This document shows positions 7,837 through 26,670 of a stretch of 64,000 nucleotides of DNA, in pieces. Both the position numbers and the translations under genes were made by a program. Origin of the DNA: an uncultured Gammaproteobacteria bacterium (GTDB lineage Bacteria > Pseudomonadota > Gammaproteobacteria > Pseudomonadales > Pseudohongiellaceae); contig CAILUG010000046.1 in NCBI GenBank assembly GCA_903837345.1, positions 1 through 64,000 of the forward strand, written 5' to 3'. Below the pieces are notes generated by a model that searched no databases, had not been told where the DNA came from, and worked only from the letters and a program-made list of their open reading frames with translations. How positions within the stretch are numbered: position 1 is the first letter of the stretch; each line of letters starts with the position of its first letter.

Positions 7837-9867
7837 ATGACCAACATCAACAGACTCATGTTGCTGACCGGCTTCTGGCTGGCAGCATTGTCAGTGCAGG
7901 CACAAGACACCTATACACCCAAAGCGCTCACGCAGCTGCCAACCACCGCGTGGCGCACCAACGGCGGCAACCTCGCCAACCAGCGCTATTCACCGTTGCA
8001 GCAGATCGATCGCAGCAATGTCGCCGGCCTCAAAGCCGAGTGGGTGGTGCATCTTGCTTCCGGCGTGGCGCCGAAAAATTCCGGTGAAGCACAACCACTG
8101 GTGGCGGATGGTGTGGCTTATATTGCTTCCGGTGACGACGACGTGTTCGCCATCGAACTCGCCAGCGGCAAGATGCTGTGGACCTATCACGCCAAACTTG
8201 ATCAGGGCATTACTACCGTGTGCTGCGGCTGGACCAGTCGCGGCGTGGCGCTGAACGAAGACAGCGTGTTCGTGGGCCAGCTCGATGGCAAGTTGCTCTC
8301 GCTCAATCGCAAGACCGGCGCTGTGCGCTGGCAGATCCAGGCCGAACAATGGCAGCAGGGTTTCAGCATCACTGCGGCACCGCTCTATTACGACGGCATG
8401 GTGATCACCGGTTTTTCCGGTGGCGAACTGGGCGTGCGTGGCCGCGTGAAAGCCTTCAACGCCACTGACGGTTCCCTCAAGTGGACCTTCTACACGATTC
8501 CCGGCCCCGGTGAATTCGGTCACGACACCTGGAGCAAGGACAACGAACTCTGGCAGCACGGTGGCGCCACTGTATGGCAGACTCCGGCAGTCGACCCCGA
8601 CCTCGGCCTGCTGTATTTCTCCACCGGCAACGCCGGCCCCGATTACAACGGCAATGTGCGCAAGGGCGACAACCTGTTCTCGGCTTCCATCATTGCGCTG
8701 GATGTGAAGACCGGCCGCTACCGCTGGCATTTCCAGGAAGTGCATCACGACCTGTGGGATTACGATGCCTCCAATCCGGTGATCCTGTTTGATCTCGTCA
8801 AAGACGGAGTGCCGCGCAAAGGCATCGCCCAGGCCGGCAAAACCGGCTGGGTTTACATTCTGGATCGCACCACTGGCGAGCCGCTGGTAGGCATTGATGA
8901 AAAGCCGGTGCCGCAGCGCAAGGAAAATGCCACCGCCGCCACGCAGCCGTATCCGGTGGGCGATGCGTTTGTGCCGCATGAAATCCAGATGGCACCCGAA
9001 GGTTATCCGATGGTCAACAAGGGGCGCATCTTCACGCCGTACTGGACCGATGCAGTAGTAGTGGCGCCTGGGATCGGCGGTGGTGCCAACTGGCCACCGA
9101 GTGCGATCGATCCGCAAAGCGGCATCATGTACATCTGTGCCAACGACCGCCCCTTTGCGTATCGCTCTGACGACATCGGTTCGCAACGACCGCAGCCCGG
9201 GCAGATGTTTACCGGCGGCAGTTTTCTCGGTTATCCGCTGTGGAACATGGGTGTGTTCGCAGCGATGGATCTGCATACCAACAAGATTGTGTGGCAACGC
9301 CACTGGAAAGATCCGTGCAACAGTGGCGTGACCGTGACTGCAGCCGGGCTGGTATTTGTCGGGCGCAATGATGGCCGGCTGGTGGCGTTGAACAGCGATG
9401 ACGGCACAGTGGTGTGGGAATTCCAGACCGGTGCCGGCATGAATGCGCCAGTGACAGTGTTTGAAAGCGGCGGCGTGCAATATGTGCTGGCGTATGCGGC
9501 CGGCAATTCACTGGGGCCGTCACCGCATGGGGATTCGCTGTGGCTGTTCTCGCTGAAAGGCAGGATGGAGCAGGCGTTGCCGCCGGGCTCGGCGCAGACT
9601 GCGGCTGACAGCAAGCAGCCGGCGGGCGGCAAGGCGGATCTGAAGGCGGGGAAGGTTGCCTATGATTCGATTTGTGCCAATTGCCACGGCGAAGAAGGGC
9701 GCGGCGGCCATGGCGGTGGTATTTCGCTGGAGAATGCCAAGGCGCCGGAGTTTGTGTTGAGTCTGATGAATCAGGGACGCAACCGGATGCCGGCGTTGGG
9801 GGCTGCACTCAGTCCGGAACAGCTGCGGGACATATCTGGTTATGTGACCCAGAAGCTGGCCAAATAA
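7837..9867 (+). CDS. Periplasmic PQQ-dependent dehydrogenase with C-terminal cytochrome c
   Basis: Quinohaemoprotein-type alcohol/sugar dehydrogenase predicted to oxidise a substrate in the periplasm and pass electrons through its own haem. The 676-residue protein has a signal peptide ending near LSVQAQ, an eight-bladed PQQ propeller, the vicinal Cys pair C129-C130 typical of PQQ alcohol dehydrogenases, and HHDLWDYDASNP at the expected active-site region. The C-terminus carries CANCH at about 613-617 and a likely axial Met in RMPALG. The ATG at 7837 follows an AGGGGAA ribosome-binding site. No pqq biosynthesis genes occur in the window. The substrate is unknown. Confidence 0.9.
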   Translation: MTNINRLMLLTGFWLAALSVQAQDTYTPKALTQLPTTAWRTNGGNLANQRYSPLQQIDRSNVAGLKAEWVVHLASGVAPKNSGEAQPLVADGVAYIASGDDDVFAIELASGKMLWTYHAKLDQGITTVCCGWTSRGVALNEDSVFVGQLDGKLLSLNRKTGAVRWQIQAEQWQQGFSITAAPLYYDGMVITGFSGGELGVRGRVKAFNATDGSLKWTFYTIPGPGEFGHDTWSKDNELWQHGGATVWQTPAVDPDLGLLYFSTGNAGPDYNGNVRKGDNLFSASIIALDVKTGRYRWHFQEVHHDLWDYDASNPVILFDLVKDGVPRKGIAQAGKTGWVYILDRTTGEPLVGIDEKPVPQRKENATAATQPYPVGDAFVPHEIQMAPEGYPMVNKGRIFTPYWTDAVVVAPGIGGGANWPPSAIDPQSGIMYICANDRPFAYRSDDIGSQRPQPGQMFTGGSFLGYPLWNMGVFAAMDLHTNKIVWQRHWKDPCNSGVTVTAAGLVFVGRNDGRLVALNSDDGTVVWEFQTGAGMNAPVTVFESGGVQYVLAYAAGNSLGPSPHGDSLWLFSLKGRMEQALPPGSAQTAADSKQPAGGKADLKAGKVAYDSICANCHGEEGRGGHGGGISLENAKAPEFVLSLMNQGRNRMPALGAALSPEQLRDISGYVTQKLAK

Positions 9868-12052: not shown

Positions 12053-12937
12053 TTAAGCCTGATTCTCCAAAGCCTTAATCCTGTCTTCCAACGGCGGATG
12101 ACTGGCAAACAAACTCATATGACCAGTGTTAATGCCGAACGCAACCAGTTCGTTCGGCATCGGCGCTTCCTGGCCTTGCTGCAATCTGCGCAGTGCATCG
12201 ATCATTTTCTGGCGGCCGGCCAGATGGGCGCCGCCGGCATCGGCGCGGAATTCACGCCAGCGCGAGAACCAGGCCACGATCATCGTCGCGAAAACGCCGA
12301 GTACGATCTGCGCCACCAGTGAGCTGATAAAGAAGCCGATGCCGGGGCCGCGATCGCGGTCATCGCTGTTGCCGCGGAACAGCATCTGGTCCACGAAGAA
12401 ACCGATGATGCGCGAGAGGAATATCACGAAGGTGTTGACTACGCCCTGGATCAGCGTAAGTGTCACCATGTCGCCGTTGGCAACGTGGCTGAGTTCGTGG
12501 CCGAGCACGGCTTCGATTTCATCGCGGGTCATGCCGTTGAGCAGGCCGGTGCTTACCGCTACCAATGCAGCGTCCTTGTTCCAGCCGGTGGCGAATGCGT
12601 TGGGTGCTTCAGAATCGAAAATACCCACTTCCGGCATTTTGACGCCAGCCTGGCCGGCCAGCCGTTCCACTGTGCGCAGCAGCCAGCCTTCGAATTCGCT
12701 TTTGGGCTGGTCGATTACTTCCACGCCCATCGACCACTTGGCCATCATTTTCGACATCATCAGGGACGCGAACGAGCCAACGAATCCGATCACGGCGGAA
12801 TAGACCAGCAGCTGCTGAAGATCCAGCGCGGTGCCATGCGCAGTCATGAAGCCCTGGAAGCCGACCAGCTTCAGGACGATGGAAATCAGCACCATTACCG
12901 CGATGTTGGTGGCCAGAAACAGCATTATGCGCATCAT
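12053..12937 (-). CDS. htpX: Heat-shock membrane protease HtpX
   Basis: Zinc metalloprotease of the inner membrane that degrades misfolded membrane proteins alongside FtsH. The 294-residue protein has two N-terminal membrane segments (about 4-25 and 42-62), the zinc motif HELSH at 147-151 within GHELSHVANGD, two further membrane segments after it, and a third ligand region in REFRADAGGA. Length matches the family. Two adjacent ATG codons (12937, 12934) follow a GAGGAG site. A sigma-32-like promoter lies 34 nt upstream, as expected for a heat-shock gene. Confidence 0.96.
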   Translation of the reverse strand: MMRIMLFLATNIAVMVLISIVLKLVGFQGFMTAHGTALDLQQLLVYSAVIGFVGSFASLMMSKMMAKWSMGVEVIDQPKSEFEGWLLRTVERLAGQAGVKMPEVGIFDSEAPNAFATGWNKDAALVAVSTGLLNGMTRDEIEAVLGHELSHVANGDMVTLTLIQGVVNTFVIFLSRIIGFFVDQMLFRGNSDDRDRGPGIGFFISSLVAQIVLGVFATMIVAWFSRWREFRADAGGAHLAGRQKMIDALRRLQQGQEAPMPNELVAFGINTGHMSLFASHPPLEDRIKALENQA

Positions 12938-16797: not shown

Positions 16798-17811
16798 ATG
16801 GCTATACGCATAGGTCTGATGGGTTTTGGTAAAATCGGCCGCCAGCTTTATGAACTGGCAGCGCGCAGTGACGATATTGAAGTGGTCGCCATTGCCGACA
16901 AGGGCCGGCCGGATATCCTGCATTATCTGCTGAGCGCGGAATCCGCCAGGCCGGAACTCTACCGGCTGGAAGGCAACCGGCTGGAGAATCCGCGGTTCAC
17001 CACCCGCATGACGCAGGTCGACACCCCGGGCGACATGCCATGGGATGTGTTTGATGTGGAAGCCGTGGTGGATTGCACCGGAATTTTCCGCGACGTTGCC
17101 AGCATGCGGGCGCATCTTGATGCCGGCGCCAATCGCGTGCTGTTGCGCACGTTGCCGGCTGACAAGATCGACCGCATCGTCATCCCTGGTATCAATTCCC
17201 ACACCATCTACGCCGGCGACCGCATGTTGTCGGCCGGTTCAGCCACCACCAATGCGCTGTGCCTGTTGTTGCACATCGTCGCGGCCAGGCTGCAGATTGA
17301 CTGCGTCAGCATGACTACCATGCACTGCTACACCAGCGACCAGTCGTTGCAGGACTATGCCGGGCGCGACTTCCGCCGCAGCCGTTCGGCTGCCGAAAAC
17401 ATCATCCCCAACACCCACGAAGCCGAACGCTGGATGCATGTGATCCTGCCAGCCTTTGCCGGCAAGGTAATGACCAACACGCTTAACGTGCCTATCCATA
17501 GCGGGTGCATGCTGGATGCCAACCTGGTGCTGGCCGACAGCAGCATCGATACCGAAGCGTTCAATGCGATAGTGCGCGCCGGTGCTGCCGATATCGATGA
17601 CGTGGTGGGAGTCACCGAAGATCCGATTGTGTCTTCCGATGTTCTGGGCAGCACGCTGTCGCTGCTGTTTGATACCCAGGCCACCGAAAAAGCCGGCCAG
17701 CACATCATCAAGGCGGTGGGCTGGTACGAAAACCTCGGTCATGCCGCGCGTTTGCTGGATGTGGTGCGGCTCTATCACAACCTCGACATGGTGATGGGAG
17801 CCAGCCTATGA
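16798..17811 (+). CDS. GAPDH paralogue lacking the catalytic cysteine
   Basis: A 337-residue protein with the full glyceraldehyde-3-phosphate dehydrogenase architecture. The nucleotide-binding GFGKIGR (10-15) and the base at His176 (MHCYTSDQ) are kept. The catalytic motif SCTTNC is SATTNA, with Ala at position 149 (codon GCC at 17242-17244). The phosphate-site TGAAKAVG becomes THEAERWM, the substrate Arg segment RVPVPDG becomes NVPIHSG, and the C-terminal NEWGYS is lost. Dehydrogenase chemistry is therefore unlikely. The frame is open and well conserved, so it looks like a maintained pseudoenzyme rather than decay. It overlaps the true gap gene by four bases and follows ppc by four. Confidence 0.88.
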   Translation: MAIRIGLMGFGKIGRQLYELAARSDDIEVVAIADKGRPDILHYLLSAESARPELYRLEGNRLENPRFTTRMTQVDTPGDMPWDVFDVEAVVDCTGIFRDVASMRAHLDAGANRVLLRTLPADKIDRIVIPGINSHTIYAGDRMLSAGSATTNALCLLLHIVAARLQIDCVSMTTMHCYTSDQSLQDYAGRDFRRSRSAAENIIPNTHEAERWMHVILPAFAGKVMTNTLNVPIHSGCMLDANLVLADSSIDTEAFNAIVRAGAADIDDVVGVTEDPIVSSDVLGSTLSLLFDTQATEKAGQHIIKAVGWYENLGHAARLLDVVRLYHNLDMVMGASL

Positions 17812-18806
17812 AAATCGCCATCAACGGCTTTGGCCGCATCGGCCGCGCGGTATACCGCATCCTTGATCAGCAGGGCGATATAGAAATCACCGCGATCAAC
17901 GATCTGTTCGATCCGGCCGCGCTGCGTTATTTGCTGAACTACGACACCGTGATGGGCGGCTTCGGTCGTTCGCTGACGCTGGAAGAAAACTGTCTGGTCA
18001 CTGACAACAACCGCACGATGTTGTTGTGCGAGAAAAATCCGCAGAGTTTGCCGTGGGGCGAGCTCGGCATCGACGTGGTGGTGGAGTCGACCGGTGTGTT
18101 CCGCAAGCGCGTGCAGCTGGAACAGCATCTCACTGCCGGCGCCCGCAAAGTGGTGCTGACGGTGCCGGCCGCTGATGCCATTGATTACACCGTGGTACTC
18201 GGTGTCAATGATGGCGGCCTCAACAAGGATCACCGCATTATTTCCAACGCGTCCTGCACCACCAACTGTCTGGCACCGATGGCGAAAGTGCTCGACTCTG
18301 CGTTCGGCATCGAAGAGGGCATGATCAACACCGTGCACGCCTACACCAACGACCAGCGCCTGGCCGATGTGCCACACTCCGACTGGCGCCGCAGCCGCGC
18401 TGCTGCCGAAAACATCATTCCCACTTCCACCGGTGCCGCCAAAGCCGTAGGCGAAGTGTTACCGCAACTGAAAGGCAAGCTGCACGGCATTGCCTCGCGT
18501 GTGCCCGTGCCTGATGGTTCAGTTGTCGACCTGTTTGCGCGACTGGCGCACAAAGTCACCGTGGCCGACATCCACCAAGCGGTGCGCGCCGCGGTCGCCA
18601 GCCCAGGCATGCAGGGCATCCTGGAATTCGCCGACAAACCACTGGTGTCCACCGACATCATCGGCAACTCACACTCCTCAATCTACGATGCCGCCTTCAC
18701 GCAGGTGAATGGCGGCCAGTTCATTCGTGTACTGAACTGGTATGACAACGAGTGGGGCTATTCGAGCCGGGTGTGTGATTTGTTGGCGTTGCTCAAGCTG
18801 TTGTAA
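17808..18806 (+). CDS. gap: Type I glyceraldehyde-3-phosphate dehydrogenase
   Basis: Central glycolytic/gluconeogenic enzyme: oxidises glyceraldehyde-3-phosphate with NAD and inorganic phosphate. The 332-residue protein has INGFGRIGR, Asp32 in INDLFDP (favours NAD over NADP), the active-site ASCTTNC with Cys150, HAYTNDQ, the phosphate-site TGAAKAVGEVLPQL, RVPVPDGSVVDL and NWYDNEWGYSSR. All catalytic and binding residues that the upstream paralogue lacks are present. Its start codon overlaps the paralogue's stop (ATGA), so both chains are made in step. Erythrose-4-phosphate dehydrogenase is less likely because the GAPDH phosphate sites are intact. Confidence 0.94.
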   Translation: MKIAINGFGRIGRAVYRILDQQGDIEITAINDLFDPAALRYLLNYDTVMGGFGRSLTLEENCLVTDNNRTMLLCEKNPQSLPWGELGIDVVVESTGVFRKRVQLEQHLTAGARKVVLTVPAADAIDYTVVLGVNDGGLNKDHRIISNASCTTNCLAPMAKVLDSAFGIEEGMINTVHAYTNDQRLADVPHSDWRRSRAAAENIIPTSTGAAKAVGEVLPQLKGKLHGIASRVPVPDGSVVDLFARLAHKVTVADIHQAVRAAVASPGMQGILEFADKPLVSTDIIGNSHSSIYDAAFTQVNGGQFIRVLNWYDNEWGYSSRVCDLLALLKLL

Positions 18807-18818
18807 ACCACTATTGCG

Positions 18819-20141
18819 TCACAGCTTTGCCGGCGACCGCGCCGGCACATTGCCGCCCTGTTTCAGCCACACGAGCGCGACGAAGGCCAGCATGGAGCCG
18901 GTGCCCATGATCAGCGACAGTATGGGCAGTTGCGTCCCGGTTTGCAGCAGGAAGCCGGCAAGGATCGGTGACAACGCCGAACCGCCCCGGCCGACACCGA
19001 TGGCGAAGCCGGTGCCGGAGCCGCGCACGTGGGTCGGGTATACCTGAGCCAATAGCGCGTACATGCCGACGATGCCGGAATTGATGAAGTAGCCGGCGAT
19101 GCCGACCAGGGCCGACAATACGGCCAGATTGGCCGGCGTCTGGCCGAACAGGATGGTGGCCAACCAGGAACCCACGAAGAAGAACAGCGTCAGTTTTTTT
19201 ACGTCATAAAACTTGCTCAGCCAGCCGAAGGTCAGACAACCGAGTGCGCCGCCGACGCTGGCCCATGTCAACACGCCTCCGGCAGCGGAGGCCGAAAAAC
19301 CCAGATCGACCACCAGTTTCGGCACCCACTTGAGAATGTAGTAGAACGTAATCATGTGCAGAAAGTAGCCGGCAGTGACGATCAGCGTGATCGGGAGCAG
19401 AGCCTTGCTGAAAATGTCCAACCACGCCGTGCCTTTTTCCTCTTTGTGCGCATCCGGCAGCACCGTCGTCGTGGCCTGGCCCAACCTTGTCATGATGTTG
19501 TTGACGCGGTTGAGCGCATCGATGGGCCGTTTGCGCACCAGCCATTGCACCGATTCCGGCATGATGACGAGCACCGGCGGGATCAGCAGCGCCGTCATCG
19601 CAGTGCCGAAGTAGAACACATAGCGCCAGTCGTGGATTTTCAGCAACTGCGTCACCACCAGGCCGCCGATTACTCCGCCACACGGATAGCCGACCGCCAT
19701 CAGCGCGATGGCCAGCGGGCGGTTGCGGCTGTTGGCGAATTCGGCAGCCTGGGTATTGGTCACGGCCAGCATGCCGCCGATGCCGAGACCGGTGACAAGG
19801 CGCCAGGCCGAGAACGTTATGACGTCATGAGTGGTTGTCACCATCAGCATGCCGGCTGTCATAAGTACAAGGCAGGCAAGGATGACCGGACGGCGGCCGA
19901 TGGAATCGGCCAAGCCACCCAGCACGACCGAGCCGACGGCCATCCCCAGCACTTCTATCGACAGGATGACGCCTAGCCCCCCCATCGTCGTATGCCATTC
20001 GGCGGCAATGCCTGGTGAGGCGAAACTTATCGCCATCACGTCGAAGCCGTCGAGGGCATTGAGCGCCACTGTCAGCATTACCACCACCCATTGCAGGCGG
20101 GTCATGAGGGCGGTGTCGAGCGTCTGACGCGGGTCGTTCAT
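18819..20141 (-). CDS. MFS transporter of the aromatic acid:H+ symporter type
   Basis: Inner-membrane importer with about 12 hydrophobic segments in 440 residues. The N-terminal DGFDVMAISFASPGIAAEW and the loop GGLADSIGRRPVI (the MFS loop 2-3 signature) resemble the AAHS family, which takes up compounds such as 4-hydroxybenzoate, protocatechuate or vanillate. ATG at 20141 has an AGGGG site. It converges on gap with a 12-nt gap and diverges from the amidohydrolase gene; the shared intergenic region holds an ATTCC-N8-GGAAT site. This context suggests uptake of the substrate of the neighbouring catabolic enzymes. Confidence 0.85.
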   Translation of the reverse strand: MNDPRQTLDTALMTRLQWVVVMLTVALNALDGFDVMAISFASPGIAAEWHTTMGGLGVILSIEVLGMAVGSVVLGGLADSIGRRPVILACLVLMTAGMLMVTTTHDVITFSAWRLVTGLGIGGMLAVTNTQAAEFANSRNRPLAIALMAVGYPCGGVIGGLVVTQLLKIHDWRYVFYFGTAMTALLIPPVLVIMPESVQWLVRKRPIDALNRVNNIMTRLGQATTTVLPDAHKEEKGTAWLDIFSKALLPITLIVTAGYFLHMITFYYILKWVPKLVVDLGFSASAAGGVLTWASVGGALGCLTFGWLSKFYDVKKLTLFFFVGSWLATILFGQTPANLAVLSALVGIAGYFINSGIVGMYALLAQVYPTHVRGSGTGFAIGVGRGGSALSPILAGFLLQTGTQLPILSLIMGTGSMLAFVALVWLKQGGNVPARSPAKL

Positions 20142-20185: not shown

Positions 20186-20221
20186 GTGTACACGAACCAA
20201 TTAATTCCCATGATAAGGAAT
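20186..20221. promoter_or_regulatory. Operator-like inverted repeats between MFS and amidohydrolase genes
   Basis: ATTCC at 20204-20208 and GGAAT at 20217-20221 are separated by exactly 8 nt. The same motif with the same 8-nt spacing occurs at 24252-24269 in front of the next operon. An 8-bp palindrome GTGTACAC lies at 20186-20193. The arrangement suggests one regulator, probably the nearby TetR protein, controlling both sites. Confidence 0.5.
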
Positions 20222-20283
20222 AAATATTCTCACTCAAAAGAAATTCTGCTATATATCCCCGCCTGCCGGAATGGAGTGGGGCA

Positions 20284-20388
20284 ATGAAAACAAAAAAATC
20301 GCATCATGCTGCGGCCACGGACAACGAACCTGGCCGGCTCTACAAGATGATGCTCGATGGCAACCAGCGAGGTCTCCGGCATGTGTAA
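20284..20388 (+). CDS. Possible 34-residue leader peptide or small protein
   Basis: Open frame MKTKKSHHAAATDNEPGRLY... ending RGLRHV, with GGAG eight bases before its ATG. It ends inside the start of the amidohydrolase gene: the two frames overlap by 8 nt, so translation of the short frame could deliver ribosomes to the next start. It has no signal peptide and contains adjacent histidines. It may be a coupled leader, or an old N-terminus separated by a frame change. Homologues in related genomes would decide. Confidence 0.4.
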   Translation: MKTKKSHHAAATDNEPGRLYKMMLDGNQRGLRHV

Positions 20389-21439
20389 CTGTCCGCTGCA
20401 CCCGCGCTCACCGTTGGCATCGCGGCCATGGTCGCGTCGCCATTTGCTCGGCGCGCTGTCCGCCACGGCGCTGCTGCCGCTGTTGGCAGGCGCGCAGGAG
20501 CGCGCCGCGGCGACCGGCGCCAGCGGCATTATCGACGTACATGCCCACTTCCAGCCGCCGGCGATTCGTGCACTCAACCTGCCTGGGCCGATGAACGCGT
20601 GGACCCTGCAACGCCAGCTCGACGACATGGATCAGGCCGGCGTCAGTCGCGCCATGTTGTCCATCACCACGCCAGGGGTTCCGCTGACAGGCACGCAGGC
20701 GGCGAAAATCGCGCGTGAATCGAACGAATATGCCGCCTCGCTCGCGCGCGATCACGGCAACCGCTTCGGCTTCTTCACCGCGGTTCCCATGGACGATCTT
20801 GATGCCGCGTTGAAGGAAATCGCCTACGGCTTCGACACGCTCGGCGCCCATGGTGTCGGACTCTTCACCAGTTATGACGGCAAATGGCTCGGTGATCCCC
20901 ATTTCGATCCCGTGTTTGCCGAACTCGAGCGGCGCCGCAGCATTGTCTACGTACATCCCACCACAGCAGCTTGTTGCACGCGGCTGATTGCCGAGCTGGC
21001 CGACACGCTGATCGAATATGGCACCGATACCACACGTGCCATTGCCAGCTATGTATACCGGGGCGCTGCGCTGCGTTATCCGAATGTGCGCATGATCTGG
21101 AGTCATTCCGGCGGCACCATGCCGTTTTTGATCGAGCGTTTCGATGGCGCCGACCGCACATCGGCAGCACAGGGACACAAGGTGGCAAGTTTCCGCGAAC
21201 AGATCGCCCGTTGCTATTTCGACATCGCGCAGGCTTCCAACGCAGTGGCGACCACTGCGCTGCGCGCGGTGGTGCCGATGCAGAAGATCGTCTTCGGCAC
21301 CGATTACCCGTTTCGCACATCGGTCGAGCATGTGAACAGCCTGCATGCCGCCGGCGTATTCAATCCACAAGAATTGGAAGCGCTGTTCCACGGCAACGTG
21401 GAGCAGGGCATGCCGGAACTGTTGCGGCTGCATCGCTGA
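20381..21439 (+). CDS. Exported amidohydrolase-2 family (ACMSD-like) enzyme
   Basis: Metal-dependent hydrolase/decarboxylase fold related to aminocarboxymuconate semialdehyde decarboxylase and resorcylate-type decarboxylases, enzymes acting on aromatic acids. Of 352 residues, the N-terminus contains SRRHLLGALSATALLPLLAG, a twin-arginine-type export signal (RR at 19-20). The barrel starts with IDVHAHFQP (His54, His56), then YVHPT, IWSHSGGTMPFL and FGTDYPF with the late Asp. ATG at 20381 has GAGG eight bases upstream and is preferred over 20357. Family members are normally cytoplasmic, so Tat export of a folded metalloenzyme is notable. Confidence 0.82.
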   Translation: MCNCPLHPRSPLASRPWSRRHLLGALSATALLPLLAGAQERAAATGASGIIDVHAHFQPPAIRALNLPGPMNAWTLQRQLDDMDQAGVSRAMLSITTPGVPLTGTQAAKIARESNEYAASLARDHGNRFGFFTAVPMDDLDAALKEIAYGFDTLGAHGVGLFTSYDGKWLGDPHFDPVFAELERRRSIVYVHPTTAACCTRLIAELADTLIEYGTDTTRAIASYVYRGAALRYPNVRMIWSHSGGTMPFLIERFDGADRTSAAQGHKVASFREQIARCYFDIAQASNAVATTALRAVVPMQKIVFGTDYPFRTSVEHVNSLHAAGVFNPQELEALFHGNVEQGMPELLRLHR

Positions 21440-21482
21440 GGCGTCGCTGCAACGCAATCATTGTCCAACAGGAGCTCTAGCC

Positions 21483-23387
21483 ATGTTTTCCCGACTGCAG
21501 AAACCCCGATTTCCGGTCACGCTGACCTGGTCAGCCCCGGCCGTGGCACTGCTCGGCATCGTCATGGTCTGCAACGCCAGCGCGCAGAAAGACGTGATGC
21601 TGATGAACCGCATCGGACCTTCGACGATGGAAATTTTCGTGGCCAACGCCGATGGCAGCGATGAACATCCGCTGCTGGCGAACGCGCCAGGCCTGAACTA
21701 CGACGCCAGCTTTGCCGCGGACGGGCAATGGATCGTATTTACCTCCGAGCGCGATCCGGAAGGCCCGGGGCAAGCAGATATCTGGCGTGTCCGGCCTGAT
21801 GGCAGCGGCCTCGAACGCCTGACTACGTCTACGGCGATGGATGATGCCGGCATGTTGTCCCCGGACGGCAAGCGACTGGCCTATGTCTCCACCAAGGGTG
21901 GCGCGCGCACCGCCAATATCTGGATCAAGGATCTGCCCAGCGGCAAGGAAACCAATCTCACCGGCGATGGCGACAGCAAGCCCAAGCCGACCATGAACGG
22001 CAATTTCCGCCCGGCCTGGTCGCCGGATGGCCAATGGATCGCGTTCACGTCGGATCGCGGCGAAAAATGGATCGGTGCTGAAGGTGGCGCGGGTGCCGGC
22101 CACTCGCATCCGACCAGCCTCTACATCGTGCATCCCGACGGCAGCGGTCTGAAACGACTGACGTCCACCACGCCGGAGTCTGCCTTCGGCTCGCCGCAGT
22201 GGTCGGCTGACGGCAGCAAAATACTGGCGTACGAAATTCCAACTCGGGATACGTTTGGTGCGCGCATGTGGGGCTTCGGTATTGCCATGCTGAACTCCAC
22301 GTCGCAGATCGTGGAGATCAACGTGGCCACTGGTGAAAAAACCGCATTGAGCAGCGGCTCTGCGCTGAAAACCAATCCGCACTACCTGCCGGGTGGCAAG
22401 ACTGCCTGGCTGATCAAGGCCACGCCGATGAATGGACCCGAACCAGGCATCGTCTATGCCGACGGTTCACGCGGCCCCAAGGGGCTGGTGCGCAACCCGT
22501 CATGGTCGCCCGATGGCAAACGCGTGGTGTATTACCGCTTCGGTGCGGTGAACAGACCGCAAAACACCCGGCTCTACAGCTGGAACCAGGATTATGAATA
22601 CCGCTACACCGATGTGTTCCAGGCCGTATGTCCCGCCAACGGCAGGATGGCGCTGACCGATCTTGATTTTCCGTTTGGCAACACCAATGCGTCGATCAGC
22701 GTGATGGACCGCAACGGCGGCAACCGCAGCAAGGTATTCCAGCGCCAGGACGGCGCGGCGCTGATGGCCACCTGGTCGCCCGATTGCCAGTGGATCGCGT
22801 TCGGGTTCGGCGTTTTCTTCGGCGGCCGCGGTTTTGCGCCTGCCAACGTGTTCATGGTTAAGGCCGACGGTTCCGAATCGAAGCAGGTCACGCAAAGCAA
22901 GGTGAACGCCGGCTTCCCGGCCTGGTCACCGGACGGCAAGACGCTTGTGTACCGCCTGTGGGGCACTCCGGAAACCGCCGAGACACGCGGGCTGCGCGCG
23001 CTGAATCTCGCTGACAATTCGGTCAAGGTGCTCACCACGGAGTGGGACAACTTCCCGTTCTTCTCGCCGCAGGGCGACAGCATCGTGTTCACGCGCCGCA
23101 TGCCCGATGCCGATTTCGAAGTCTTCACGATGAAGCCTGATGGCAGCGACCTGAAAAGGCTGACCACGACCGCCGGTGCCGACGCCCACGCCACCTGGTC
23201 GGCGGACGGCAAGGAAATCTGGTTCGAGAGTTCCAGGACCGGGTTCAAGGATGAAGCCGCGTTGTATGACATTTCACCGCAACCGTACGCCCAGGTGTTC
23301 CTGATGAATCGCGACGGCAGCAACGTGCGCCAGCTGACCGACAGCAAATGGGAAGATTCGATGGGCATGTTCATCAAGCGCAAATGA
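21483..23387 (+). CDS. Exported TolB-like beta-propeller (PD40 repeats)
   Basis: A 634-residue protein with a signal region ending near MVCNASAQ and many WD40-like PD40 repeats of the form W(S/A)PDG..IAF or MKPDGSDLKRLT, filling almost the whole chain. Such propellers bind peptides or act as scaffolds in the periplasm (TolB type) or occur in peptidases, but no catalytic C-terminal domain is present here. AGGAG precedes the ATG. It follows the amidohydrolase by 43 nt and is probably co-transcribed; a role in substrate binding or processing is only inferred. Confidence 0.8.
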   Translation: MFSRLQKPRFPVTLTWSAPAVALLGIVMVCNASAQKDVMLMNRIGPSTMEIFVANADGSDEHPLLANAPGLNYDASFAADGQWIVFTSERDPEGPGQADIWRVRPDGSGLERLTTSTAMDDAGMLSPDGKRLAYVSTKGGARTANIWIKDLPSGKETNLTGDGDSKPKPTMNGNFRPAWSPDGQWIAFTSDRGEKWIGAEGGAGAGHSHPTSLYIVHPDGSGLKRLTSTTPESAFGSPQWSADGSKILAYEIPTRDTFGARMWGFGIAMLNSTSQIVEINVATGEKTALSSGSALKTNPHYLPGGKTAWLIKATPMNGPEPGIVYADGSRGPKGLVRNPSWSPDGKRVVYYRFGAVNRPQNTRLYSWNQDYEYRYTDVFQAVCPANGRMALTDLDFPFGNTNASISVMDRNGGNRSKVFQRQDGAALMATWSPDCQWIAFGFGVFFGGRGFAPANVFMVKADGSESKQVTQSKVNAGFPAWSPDGKTLVYRLWGTPETAETRGLRALNLADNSVKVLTTEWDNFPFFSPQGDSIVFTRRMPDADFEVFTMKPDGSDLKRLTTTAGADAHATWSADGKEIWFESSRTGFKDEAALYDISPQPYAQVFLMNRDGSNVRQLTDSKWEDSMGMFIKRK

Positions 23388-23443
23388 CGGCTTGAAAAGT
23401 GGGGCAGCGTGATGATTCTGGGCAAGGGCTGGCGCGGGATTCC

Positions 23444-24124
23444 CTAGTCGATACGTGAGCGCAGGCCATCGAGCATAAGACTGACGATGAACTCCTTGTA
23501 TTTCTCTGCCAGCTGTTCCTTGCCCATGCGGGCAGGGGCCAGCGGCAGGATCATTGATTGGGCCGCGGCATAGAACTCGCACAGCCCGATGATGGCGACA
23601 TGCATGAACAAAGGAACGGGCGAACTGCGTTCTTCGTCCGCGTCCGGATGAAGCATCTCGGCATAGAAACGCACGATCGCCGCGTTCATCTCGCGTACGC
23701 GCTTGCGGATTGCCGGATCCTCGGACTCGGCGCATTCGTCGATCATCAGGCGCTGCATGGAGCGTACGCGTCGCGAGAAATCGAACATGTTGGCGATGTG
23801 CACGGAGAGACGGTCGGTATTGTTTGTTGCAGGCAACGGGTGGGTGTTGATCCAGTTGGCGAGGATGTATTCGATCACGGCCAACAGCAGTTCCGCACGG
23901 TGGCTGAAGTAGTAGCGCACCAGTGCCGGATCGACGCCGGCCTTTTTGGCGATCTGCAGGTTGGTGACACGGTGGGGCGGCAAAGTGTCCAGCAACTTGC
24001 TGGCGGCGATGACGATGGTTTCCTTGCCAACGGTGCCATGCGTGGCGCGGGGTCGGCCGCGTTGGCGGAGTGGTTTGGAGGGACGGGGGGAACGGGTACT
24101 GCTGGTACGGGATTTGGCTTTCAT
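23444..24124 (-). CDS. TetR/AcrR-family transcriptional regulator
   Basis: A 226-residue one-domain-plus-ligand-pocket repressor. A basic proline/serine-rich tail (about 1-30) precedes the helix-turn-helix: VTNLQIAKKAGVDPALVRYYFSHRAELL is the TetR recognition-helix region, around residues 53-80. The C-terminal part is helical and unconserved, as expected for a ligand pocket. It diverges from the 24290 operon, with an ATTCC-N8-GGAAT site in the shared 165-nt gap, and an identical-type site lies in front of the amidohydrolase and transporter. It is the obvious candidate regulator of the cluster. Confidence 0.88.
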   Translation of the reverse strand: MKAKSRTSSTRSPRPSKPLRQRGRPRATHGTVGKETIVIAASKLLDTLPPHRVTNLQIAKKAGVDPALVRYYFSHRAELLLAVIEYILANWINTHPLPATNNTDRLSVHIANMFDFSRRVRSMQRLMIDECAESEDPAIRKRVREMNAAIVRFYAEMLHPDADEERSSPVPLFMHVAIIGLCEFYAAAQSMILPLAPARMGKEQLAEKYKEFIVSLMLDGLRSRID

Positions 24125-24251
24125 TCCGCAATTGATAGCACATATCCGCGCCCGGTAGAACAGCCAACCGAGGTCGGTGCTGCGGCAACTCCGTGAGGTG
24201 GATCGCTGCCGGCAATGCCACGCGCTGGTGCCGGAATCTGGAATGAGATAA

Positions 24252-24269
24252 ATTCCTATAGTTGGGAAT
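24252..24269. promoter_or_regulatory. Operator-like ATTCC-N8-GGAAT site before the 24290 operon
   Basis: ATTCC at 24252-24256 and GGAAT at 24265-24269, spacer 8 nt, 20 nt before the start codon of the first gene. It matches the site at 20204-20221 in arms and spacing, and the reverse complement of its inner part resembles that site further. Extra GGAAT half-sites occur just upstream (24232-24244). A repressor bound here would block the promoter. Confidence 0.5.
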
Positions 24270-24289
24270 AATAGAAAGAGGTCAGGAAA

Positions 24290-25063
24290 ATGAGACTAAA
24301 ACCACACTTGCCGCTACTGTTCGTCATGCTGGCAGCGACACTGCCTGGCAGCGCCGCCACGATGGACAACCCGCTGTATGGCGATCCCGCGCATCCGAAT
24401 TTTTCAGGCATGTGGAATCCTGAATTCGTCTATTTGGGTCCACCGCCAGGCTCCACTCCCGGTGCGGCACCGGCATTCCCGCCGCGGCCGCCCGCGGGTG
24501 CCGGCGGCGCCGCGCCGCCACCGTTCGCGCCCCCTCCAGTGCCGGAGCTGACCGGACCCTATGCCAAACGTTTCGCCGCCTGGCAGAAAGCATTCGAGAG
24601 CGGCACCCAGGAGCCTGATACTGTCACACGTTGCCTCGCCTTCGGCATCGCGCGCTTCGGCACCATGCCGGTGGAAATCATCCAGACGCCAGGTCAAATC
24701 ACGATGAACCTTGGCGTGATCCACGATATCCGGCGCATTTTCCTCGACGGCATCGGTCACACCACGGGTGCCGATCCCAGCTTCAACGGCGATTCCGTGG
24801 GCCATTGGGAAGGTGACACGCTCGTGGTCGAAACCAACAACATCCGTGCCGCCACGCTCGATCGCAACGGCGTGCCGTACTCAGACAAATTGACCGTGGT
24901 GGAGCGGATCCACTTGATCAATCCGAAGCGTCTCGAAATCGAAATGACGCTGACGGATCCGGAAGCTTTCAAGGCTCCCTTCACCATCAAACGCGCCTAT
25001 GTTCCCATGCCGAAAGGCAGTCGCTTCGAGGAGTATGTCTGTGAAAACAACCAGGATATCTGA
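24290..25063 (+). CDS. Exported protein of unknown function
   Basis: A 257-residue secreted protein: signal peptide MRLKPHLPLLFVMLAATLPGSA, then DPAHPNFSGMWNPEF, a proline/alanine/glycine-rich linker (about 53-85), and a conserved-looking domain with GHWEGDTLVVETNNI and IDRNG-like turns. I recall the GHWEGDTLVVET segment from exported proteins of Proteobacteria and Acidobacteria that occur beside DUF6152 genes; no function is known to me. It is the first gene of a three-gene plus-strand operon and overlaps the next gene by 29 nt. Confidence 0.75.
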   Translation: MRLKPHLPLLFVMLAATLPGSAATMDNPLYGDPAHPNFSGMWNPEFVYLGPPPGSTPGAAPAFPPRPPAGAGGAAPPPFAPPPVPELTGPYAKRFAAWQKAFESGTQEPDTVTRCLAFGIARFGTMPVEIIQTPGQITMNLGVIHDIRRIFLDGIGHTTGADPSFNGDSVGHWEGDTLVVETNNIRAATLDRNGVPYSDKLTVVERIHLINPKRLEIEMTLTDPEAFKAPFTIKRAYVPMPKGSRFEEYVCENNQDI

Positions 25064-25493
25064 TATCGCAATCAACAAGCTGCGATGCTCGCGCGCGATC
25101 GCCGTTGCAAGCGGTGCCTGCGCCCTGCTGTGGACAGTGGCTGCGTTGGCCCACCATTCGTTCGCCGCCTTCGATGCCGCCATGAACGAAACGCAGAAGG
25201 GCGTGGTCAAGGAGGTACGATGGACCAATCCACACATCTGGGTATTCCTGACTGTGGAAAAGGATGGCAAGGAGGTCGTCTACGGCTACGAAGGCGCGGC
25301 AATTGCAGTTCTGAAACGCGTCGGCTGGCTCAGCGACAGTGTGAAGACCGGCGATGTCGTCACCGTGCACGGTCATCCCTACAAGGATGGCAGGCCCGGA
25401 GGCAGCATCGAATATGTGGAGCTTGCCGACGGCCACAAGCTGGGCACCGGCGATGCCATTCCGGGGGCCTTGGTCGTGCCGACAGGAAATTGA
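25035..25493 (+). CDS. DUF6152-type exported protein
   Basis: A 152-residue protein with a signal-like segment (IAVASGACALLWTVAALA) followed at once by HHSFAAFD, the hallmark start of the mature DUF6152 family, then VKEVRWTNPHIWVFL and TVHGHPYKDGRPGGSIEYVELADG. It is a small periplasmic beta-rich protein of unknown function. The histidines directly after the cleavage site could bind metal, which is speculation. ATG at 25035 is inside the end of the preceding gene with GAGG just upstream; the downstream FAH-fold gene follows by 43 nt. Confidence 0.78.
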   Translation: MSVKTTRISDIAINKLRCSRAIAVASGACALLWTVAALAHHSFAAFDAAMNETQKGVVKEVRWTNPHIWVFLTVEKDGKEVVYGYEGAAIAVLKRVGWLSDSVKTGDVVTVHGHPYKDGRPGGSIEYVELADGHKLGTGDAIPGALVVPTGN

Positions 25494-25536: not shown

Positions 25537-26670
25537 ATGTCCAGAAGCAGATTCAACAAGGGGTGGCGTACAGCGGTGGCGACGGGTGTGTTGGCGGTAT
25601 CCGCCCACGGCATGGCCGCGGATGCGCCGGCGTTCAAACTGGGGACATTCCGGGACGGTGGCGACACCTGGCTTGGACTTGTGCTGCGTGATGCCGACGT
25701 CGTGAATATCAGCGCTGCCAACACCGCCTACGAGCGTGCCAATCCAGCTGCCACCCGCATCGCCATTCCGGCCGATATGAAGCAACTCATTGCGCGCTAT
25801 GAGACTGACCTGGGACCGCGCCTGCGTGCCATTGCTGTTTATGCGACCGCCAATCCTGCCGGCTTTGTCCATAAAACCACCCAATTGAAGATACTGCCGC
25901 CGGTGATGCCTGCGTTGATCCTCAATGCTGGCGCGAATTATCCGGATCATGCCGCCGGCATCGTTGCGCAAGGCGCACGTGCCGCGGCTGCCGCTGGTGG
26001 GGCCGCGCCGCCTGCCGCTGGCCCGCCACGCGCTGGCGCCCAGTCGATGCCAGGCTACTGGGAACGCGCACCCGGTGACGTGCGTCCCGACAATCCATAC
26101 CTGTTCCTGAAATCGCCGACGGCGGTGGTTGGCGCCGATGACGACGTGGTCATTCCAAAGGGTCGCGAGCAAATCGACTGGGAATGCGAGTTTGCCGTGG
26201 TAATTGGCAAGCCAGCCAAAAACGTTTCGACAGAAGCGGCCGCCAACTATGTGTTCGGCTACTCGATTGAATTCGACGTCTCCGACCGTGCCGGGCGCGG
26301 CGACCGCAAAATGGGCGGTGGTCCGGACTGGCTGGTCCAGAAGAACCACGACACTTTTGCGCCGATAGGCCCCTACATCGTGCCCAAGGAATTCCTGCCA
26401 CGTCCGACGGATACGCGGCACTACTTCACGCTCAACGGCGAGATCAAACAGGATTCCAATACCAGCCGCATGGAATACAGCCTGTGGGAAATGGTGTCGT
26501 TCGCTTCCAACATGATGACGCTGAATCCGGGTGACATGCTCTCGCTGGGCACCCCTTCGGGTACCAATATCGAAAGTGCCAATCCGCGCTGGATGAAAGC
26601 AGGCGATGTCGGCGTTTGCGTGGTGGAGGGAATCGGCGAACAGCACCACAAGATCGTGGCACAACCCTGA
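25537..26670 (+). CDS. Exported fumarylacetoacetate-hydrolase-fold enzyme
   Basis: A 377-residue protein. The C-terminal two thirds have the FAH catalytic domain: IDWECEFAVVIG with the metal-binding E-x-E, FGYSIEFDVSDR with the metal-binding Asp, and SLGTPSGT with the late glycine-rich turn. Relatives hydrolyse or decarboxylate acyl-pyruvates from meta-cleavage of aromatics. Unusual features are an N-terminal signal peptide (VATGVLAVSAHGMAADA), since most FAH proteins are cytoplasmic, and an Ala/Gly/Pro-rich insertion at about residues 148-170. A strong AGGAGGGG site precedes the ATG. It is the last gene of the operon. Confidence 0.85.
   Translation: MSRSRFNKGWRTAVATGVLAVSAHGMAADAPAFKLGTFRDGGDTWLGLVLRDADVVNISAANTAYERANPAATRIAIPADMKQLIARYETDLGPRLRAIAVYATANPAGFVHKTTQLKILPPVMPALILNAGANYPDHAAGIVAQGARAAAAAGGAAPPAAGPPRAGAQSMPGYWERAPGDVRPDNPYLFLKSPTAVVGADDDVVIPKGREQIDWECEFAVVIGKPAKNVSTEAAANYVFGYSIEFDVSDRAGRGDRKMGGGPDWLVQKNHDTFAPIGPYIVPKEFLPRPTDTRHYFTLNGEIKQDSNTSRMEYSLWEMVSFASNMMTLNPGDMLSLGTPSGTNIESANPRWMKAGDVGVCVVEGIGEQHHKIVAQP

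Follow-up and report, generated by a model that had tools for sequence, protein, structure and literature searches.

Matching ATTCC-N8-GGAAT palindromes in two divergent promoters as probable operators of a nearby TetR-family regulator

The window, by which we mean the whole 64-kb stretch of DNA analysed, contains a gene for a TetR-family regulator flanked by two divergent promoter regions, each carrying one exact copy of the palindrome ATTCC-N8-GGAAT. The genes and candidate sites of this region are as follows.

18819-20141, minus strand: MFS transporter resembling aromatic-acid/H+ symporters (PF07690, 146.7 bits); proposed target
20204-20221, no strand: candidate operator site 1, ATTCCCATGATAAGGAAT, exact motif in the MFS/amidohydrolase divergent promoter
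20226-20243, no strand: degenerate tandem partner of site 1, ATTCTCACTCAAAAGAAA, in tandem with a 22-bp distance from start to start
20357-21439, plus strand (start possibly at 20381): amidohydrolase (Amidohydro_2, PF04909, 95.5 bits); proposed target
21483-23387, plus strand: PD40 beta-propeller protein, 3′ of the amidohydrolase (PF07676, 179.5 bits)
23444-24124, minus strand: TetR-family regulator of 226 aa (PF00440 TetR_N, 24.7 bits, cut-off 24); proposed binder of all three sites
24252-24269, no strand: candidate operator site 2, ATTCCTATAGTTGGGAAT, exact motif in the TetR/24290 divergent promoter
24290-25063, plus strand: 24290 protein, encoded first in the 24290 operon; unmatched in Pfam and NCBIfam; apparent signal peptide
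25035-25493, plus strand: DUF6152 protein (PF19649, 91.7 bits)
25537-26670, plus strand: fumarylacetoacetate-hydrolase-family protein (PF01557, 181.9 bits); apparent signal peptide

The best hit of the MFS gene product was the family of aromatic acid/H+ symporters TIGR00895, and its score of 315.5 bits, under the cut-off of 418.55, indicates resemblance rather than membership. The amidohydrolase seems to carry a Tat-like signal, and several proteins of the cluster appear, as read from their sequences, to carry export signals. Proteins of the fumarylacetoacetate-hydrolase family are normally regarded as cytoplasmic; both the protein encoded at 25537-26670 and its counterpart at 505-1638 of the orthologous locus L035 (described below) start with a signal-peptide-like stretch, which is unusual. 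Paralogues of the 24290 protein form a large family (loci L083-L102), with 14 matches in genome G776 alone and occurrence in 29 of the 148 genomes around G776; its use as an orthologue probe was abandoned on account of the excess of paralogues in G776 relatives. A small ORF of 34 codons (MKTKKSHHAAATDNEPGRLYKMMLDGNQRGLRHV, 20284-20388) lies between site 1 and the amidohydrolase, and its stop codon and the ATG at 20381 overlap in the manner of translational coupling. Two adjacent ORFs of 337 and 332 aa occupy 16798-18806, and we take both to resemble glyceraldehyde-3-phosphate dehydrogenase-type proteins.

An earlier note on this DNA had described two sites with identical arms and the same 8-nt spacer in two divergent promoters, and this description was correct, as exactly two copies of ATTCC-N8-GGAAT occur in the window. 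Shuffled windows contained 0.05 copies on average, and two copies were found in none of 100 shuffles. Site 1 is located 62 bp 5′ of the ATG of the MFS transporter (20141, minus strand), with the amidohydrolase on its other side, while site 2 is located 5′ of two start codons, 127 bp from that of TetR (24124, minus strand) and 20 bp from that at 24290. A terminator-like structure was sought at site 1 and site 2, and neither place has one. The same note had noticed no third copy with this spacing; the exact motif is indeed found nowhere else in the window, but a weaker copy in tandem with site 1, at 20226-20243, had been missed. This partner, which differs at three of the ten core positions, was spotted by eye from the spacing seen in orthologous clusters, before any matrix ranking was done. 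In the ranking with a matrix of 26 positions, built from 38 sites of other genomes and none of the window, site 1 (position 20204) scored 28.6 bits and ranked first, site 2 (24252) scored 27.7 bits and ranked second, and the partner (20226) scored 18.6 bits and ranked third. In 12 simulated windows, the top scores lay between 7.2 and 20.0 bits, and one of the 12 exceeded the score of the partner.

The TetR_N helix-turn-helix domain of the regulator scores above its Pfam cut-off, and a C-terminal ligand domain (PF17938) scores 26.0 bits, just below the cut-off of 26.2. No TetR orthologues were found in the order and class of the window beyond its own genome (390 and 369 genomes), so close relatives were unusable for comparison. 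The cluster is rare in its own order and class and may have been gained laterally. A scan of genome contigs for TetR relatives yielded locus L035, with a TetR 56-57% identical to that of the window, and locus L036 of Altericroceibacterium endophyticum (40%). The gene order is kept in L035 (hydrolase, DUF6152, 24290 orthologue, divergent TetR, PD40), where the fumarylacetoacetate-hydrolase-family protein is 67% identical to its window counterpart, the 24290 protein 70-72%, and the PD40 protein, whose gene adjoins TetR, 71%. L035 carries ATTCCCTTTTCTGGGAAT in the intergenic stretch between TetR and the 24290 orthologue, the same place as site 2, and its genome (2.2 Mb) contains only two exact copies of the 18-mer. 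Plasmid records supplied two further orthologues, relatives of G776 one, and the order of G777 some others. In the G777-order clusters, TetR is accompanied by ring-cleavage-type genes (FAD oxidoreductase, VOC, FAH proteins, amidohydrolase, MBL hydrolase) and a TonB receptor. The resulting sample consisted of 14 non-redundant clusters from other genomes, each with a TetR orthologue (36-57% identity). Redundant rows were left out of the counts (L064 of G1143, near L063; L068 of G1151, near L045; L115 of G1422, whose contig equals the L044 plasmid in length), and the paralogue locus L116 (G1360, 29-31% identity) was counted separately.

Comparison of orthologous promoters, as the earlier note had proposed, revealed that the sites are not lost: all 14 non-redundant clusters carry at least one site in a cluster promoter. 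Among the clusters with a divergent TetR gene, 11 of 12 have a site in the TetR promoter, two of the 11 with two mismatches; the divergent partner gene of G1425 is not clearly resolved. Sites with at most one mismatch were located 5′ of TetR, VOC, TonB and other cluster genes, and even where the TetR orthologue is distant (36-40%), sites that match exactly or nearly so lie 5′ of TetR and of other cluster operons. From 24 non-window sites we obtained the consensus W-ATTCC-YR-N4-YR-GGAAT-W, in which the flanking W was A or T in each of 48 half-site counts, though it lies outside the search pattern. The five clusters fetched after the consensus had been fixed all contained sites, with two mismatches in the TetR-promoter site of L111 and L112. 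G792, at first an apparent exception with no site in its TetR/MBL gap, carries ATTCCTGCTGCAAGGAAT (30.1 bits) directly 5′ of the VOC and FAD genes on another contig.

Orthologous loci totalling 250,460 bases contain eleven exact copies of ATTCC-N8-GGAAT, the top count among 320 equal-GC pentamers (mean 0.21, next best 3), and other spacers from 0 to 16 gave at most four copies. The excess was smaller when one mismatch was allowed (51 vs a mean of 4.1, with ATCGA reaching 46). At a threshold of 17 bits or more, the matrix gave 48 matches in the orthologous clusters (258,670 bases), 38 from the training set and 10 from outside it, any position counted. The controls, 287,651 bases in all, gave none; they comprised other TetR-family loci (95,987 bases), 24290-family loci (67,562), paralogue regions (72,102) and the part of the window outside 18-30 kb (52,000).

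The stretch DPAL(V/I)RYYF, which we take to be the recognition helix from knowledge of the TetR_N domain, is present in the window TetR (as DPALVRYYF) and in 14 of 14 orthologues, which makes 15 of 15 TetRs from site-bearing clusters. Four paralogues from regions without sites have VHLTLFKYYF (three) or VHPSLIRYYF (one) instead, and the paralogue at L116, which has sites, carries VDPGLIRYYF. Among the computational evidence at hand, this co-variation of helix and site links the TetR protein to the DNA most strongly. Because related TetRs likewise have these sites next to their genes, the two matching sites in the window are very probably binding sites of the nearby TetR.

Sites also recur at a preferred distance from each other. 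Ten of 16 site pairs less than 120 bp apart, with the window and L116 pairs included, are spaced by 22-24 bp, mostly in the TonB promoter, and the 22 bp between site 1 and its degenerate copy at 20226 falls within this recurrent spacing. The paralogous cluster L116 contains a tandem of ATTCC-N8-GGAAT 23 bp apart (9495-9535) and a third site between the VOC and FAD genes (12457-12474); the L116 sites score 17.2, 20.4 and 22.4 bits.

For site 1, a search for amidohydrolase orthologues at E ≤ 1e-40 among 194 genomes returned the own genome only, with no orthologous MFS/amidohydrolase promoter, and the L035 contig ends before the corresponding region. Plasmid records gave 17 amidohydrolase relatives with less than 60% identity (35-38% in the ten listed). 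Locus L118 of G1425, on a contig shared with an orthologous TetR, has a divergent MFS and amidohydrolase pair with one site at 1456, scoring 19.4 bits, and another at 1665, scoring 29.3 bits. The protein encoded second in the L118 amidohydrolase operon is 40% identical to the window amidohydrolase over 344 residues, and the L118 MFS showed no similarity to the window MFS at E 1e-5. Site 1 is thus backed by the motif and by analogy with L118, rather than by strict orthology.

These observations make it highly probable, in our judgement, that the TetR encoded at 23444-24124 acts locally as a ligand-released repressor, controlling its own gene, the 24290 operon and the MFS/amidohydrolase pair. 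The proposal of the earlier note that a single-regulator regulon ties the two operons together gains support, as the same above-chance site is found in both promoters and has been kept alongside the regulator in all 14 orthologous clusters. The computed part of this explanation comprises the sites, their cross-genome conservation with the regulator, and the promoter context. From the behaviour of the TetR family, we infer binding, repression, ligand release and the identity of the ligand, as follows. A TetR dimer would bind the 18-20 bp palindrome W-ATTCC-YR-N4-YR-GGAAT-W. Site 2 would place it over the promoter region common to TetR and the 24290 operon, resulting in autoregulation, and site 1 together with its degenerate partner, 22 bp or about two helical turns away, would place it over the divergent promoter that serves the MFS gene and the amidohydrolase operon. 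When the inducer is absent, TetR would block RNA polymerase at both promoter regions. The inducer would be a small molecule, probably an aromatic acid or a related one, imported by the transporter or produced by these enzymes, and its release of TetR would switch on both operons together.

Some members of the TetR family activate transcription, and the position of a site alone leaves the direction of control undecided. The TetR might then bind both sites but activate, or act oppositely on the two operons. Site 1, however, overlaps a weak −10-like hexamer of the minus-strand MFS promoter, and site 2 overlaps a weak −10-like AATAAT at 24267-24272. Both hexamers are consensus matches only, and the overlap suits blocking, which leaves activation or opposite action an unlikely reading.

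Less probable still, and in our view quite improbable, is that some other regulator, encoded elsewhere, uses the palindrome as its operator and has the TetR gene merely as one of its targets. The copies in the own genome bear on this reading. Scanning of the 3,260,470 bases gave eight exact copies of the 18-mer, both window sites included, so the motif does not have many copies outside promoters, the outcome that the earlier note had regarded as adverse to its proposal. Four of the other six copies fall within long ORFs, and the orthologue-derived matrix parts them (6.7-10.4 bits) from the window sites (27.7 and 28.6 bits). The remaining two are read as intergenic, persist at 22.0 and 25.3 bits, and lie far from the cluster. 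One, C5:6816 (L001:1501-1518), is the perfect palindrome ATTCCTGCAAGCAGGAAT (22.0 bits) directly 5′ of the start of a 503-codon open frame, presumably for a carbamoyltransferase-like protein, and could be a further target or a hairpin. In the other, C38:62247 (L004:1501-1518; 25.3 bits), the 18-mer lies within a hairpin with 16-nt arms followed by AAAA. Both are outside the reach of a purely local repressor, although C38:62247 is terminator-like, and they speak for a different regulator, as does the computational nature of the link between TetR and the sites. The orthologue-derived 20-mer with at most one mismatch matched seven places in the own genome, of which site 2 is the only exact one and site 1 one of six with a single mismatch. 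A further own-genome candidate, C10:42636 (17.9 bits), was set aside as it appears to fall in the beginning of a coding frame.

In other genomes, the share of such 20-mer matches located in the cluster is 4/4 in G1143, 4/5 in G1245, 4/5 in G1095, and 1/1 in G1151 and in G1211. Most copies in several of these genomes are therefore in the cluster, which argues against a regulator with targets elsewhere; the shares are lower in G1158 (2/4), G777 (2/5) and G776 (1/2). G792 has 1/1, on the contig with VOC, and the paralogue genome G1185 has 0/2. Three matches were rejected on inspection: the second exact 18-mer of G776 (C109:5493) overlaps small ORFs beside unrelated genes, an extra 20-mer match of G776 (C52:8017; <12 bits) lies within an ORF of an MFS homologue, and C139:2613 of G1185 (24.0 bits) is inside a long ORF. 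Also against a different regulator, the motif accompanies TetR in distant genomes with otherwise different neighbour genes, and the presence of sites tracks the sequence of the TetR recognition helix.

Chance palindromes or RNA hairpins (terminators) are the least credible explanation by far, even with a terminator-like hairpin containing the same 18-mer at L004 in the own genome, as two copies were observed vs 0.05 expected, neither window site is terminator-like, all 14 orthologous clusters have the motif, and the flanking A/T is conserved though not searched for.

Local repression by the TetR, the reading we prefer, would join two operons without assigned function in one switch and would yield a testable DNA-binding code for an uncharacterised TetR group. 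The motif provides a search key for more targets and for the inducing compound, and the case illustrates that a short palindrome pair seen by eye can be tested by comparison of distant genomes. A broader proposal, to which we give about as much credence as doubt, is that the regulators with the helix DPxL(V/I)RYYF form an undescribed TetR subfamily. Its fixed operator and 22-24 bp tandem, suited to cooperative dimers on one DNA face, would be kept across bacterial orders while the genes beneath are replaced: sphingomonads have genes of ring-cleavage type and for TonB uptake there, and the window and G776 have exported hydrolases and DUF6152.

Local repressors of the TetR/AcrR family that autoregulate from divergent promoters are a known general class. 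A search of open-licence papers for the operator motif or for TetR operators in such a setting gave no match. In the bsd I cluster of Caenibius tardaugens, a TetR gene lies beside an amidohydrolase gene, and an operator was proposed from palindromes near the gene (PMC12882949); its palindromes, ATAGGGCCATTG and GCATGCGGGATGC, are unrelated to ATTCC-N8-GGAAT. Profile matches connect the window TetR remotely to PDB entries 3gzi (E 1.2e-14) and 2qtq/2rha (E 4.6e-14), deposited only as TetR family. The 2qtq protein aligns with the window TetR over most of its length and has the helix NSALVKYYF; since it is without the DPAL(V/I)RYYF helix, its operator need not equal that of the window. The operator sequence of the window and the 22-24 bp tandem pairs, for which the searches gave no published description, differ from the TetR/AcrR class, whereas the TetR_N helix-turn-helix domain, the regulator gene divergent from its target operon and the palindrome over the promoter are shared with it. 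As a local gene switch, that of the window appears to be new but of an ordinary sort.
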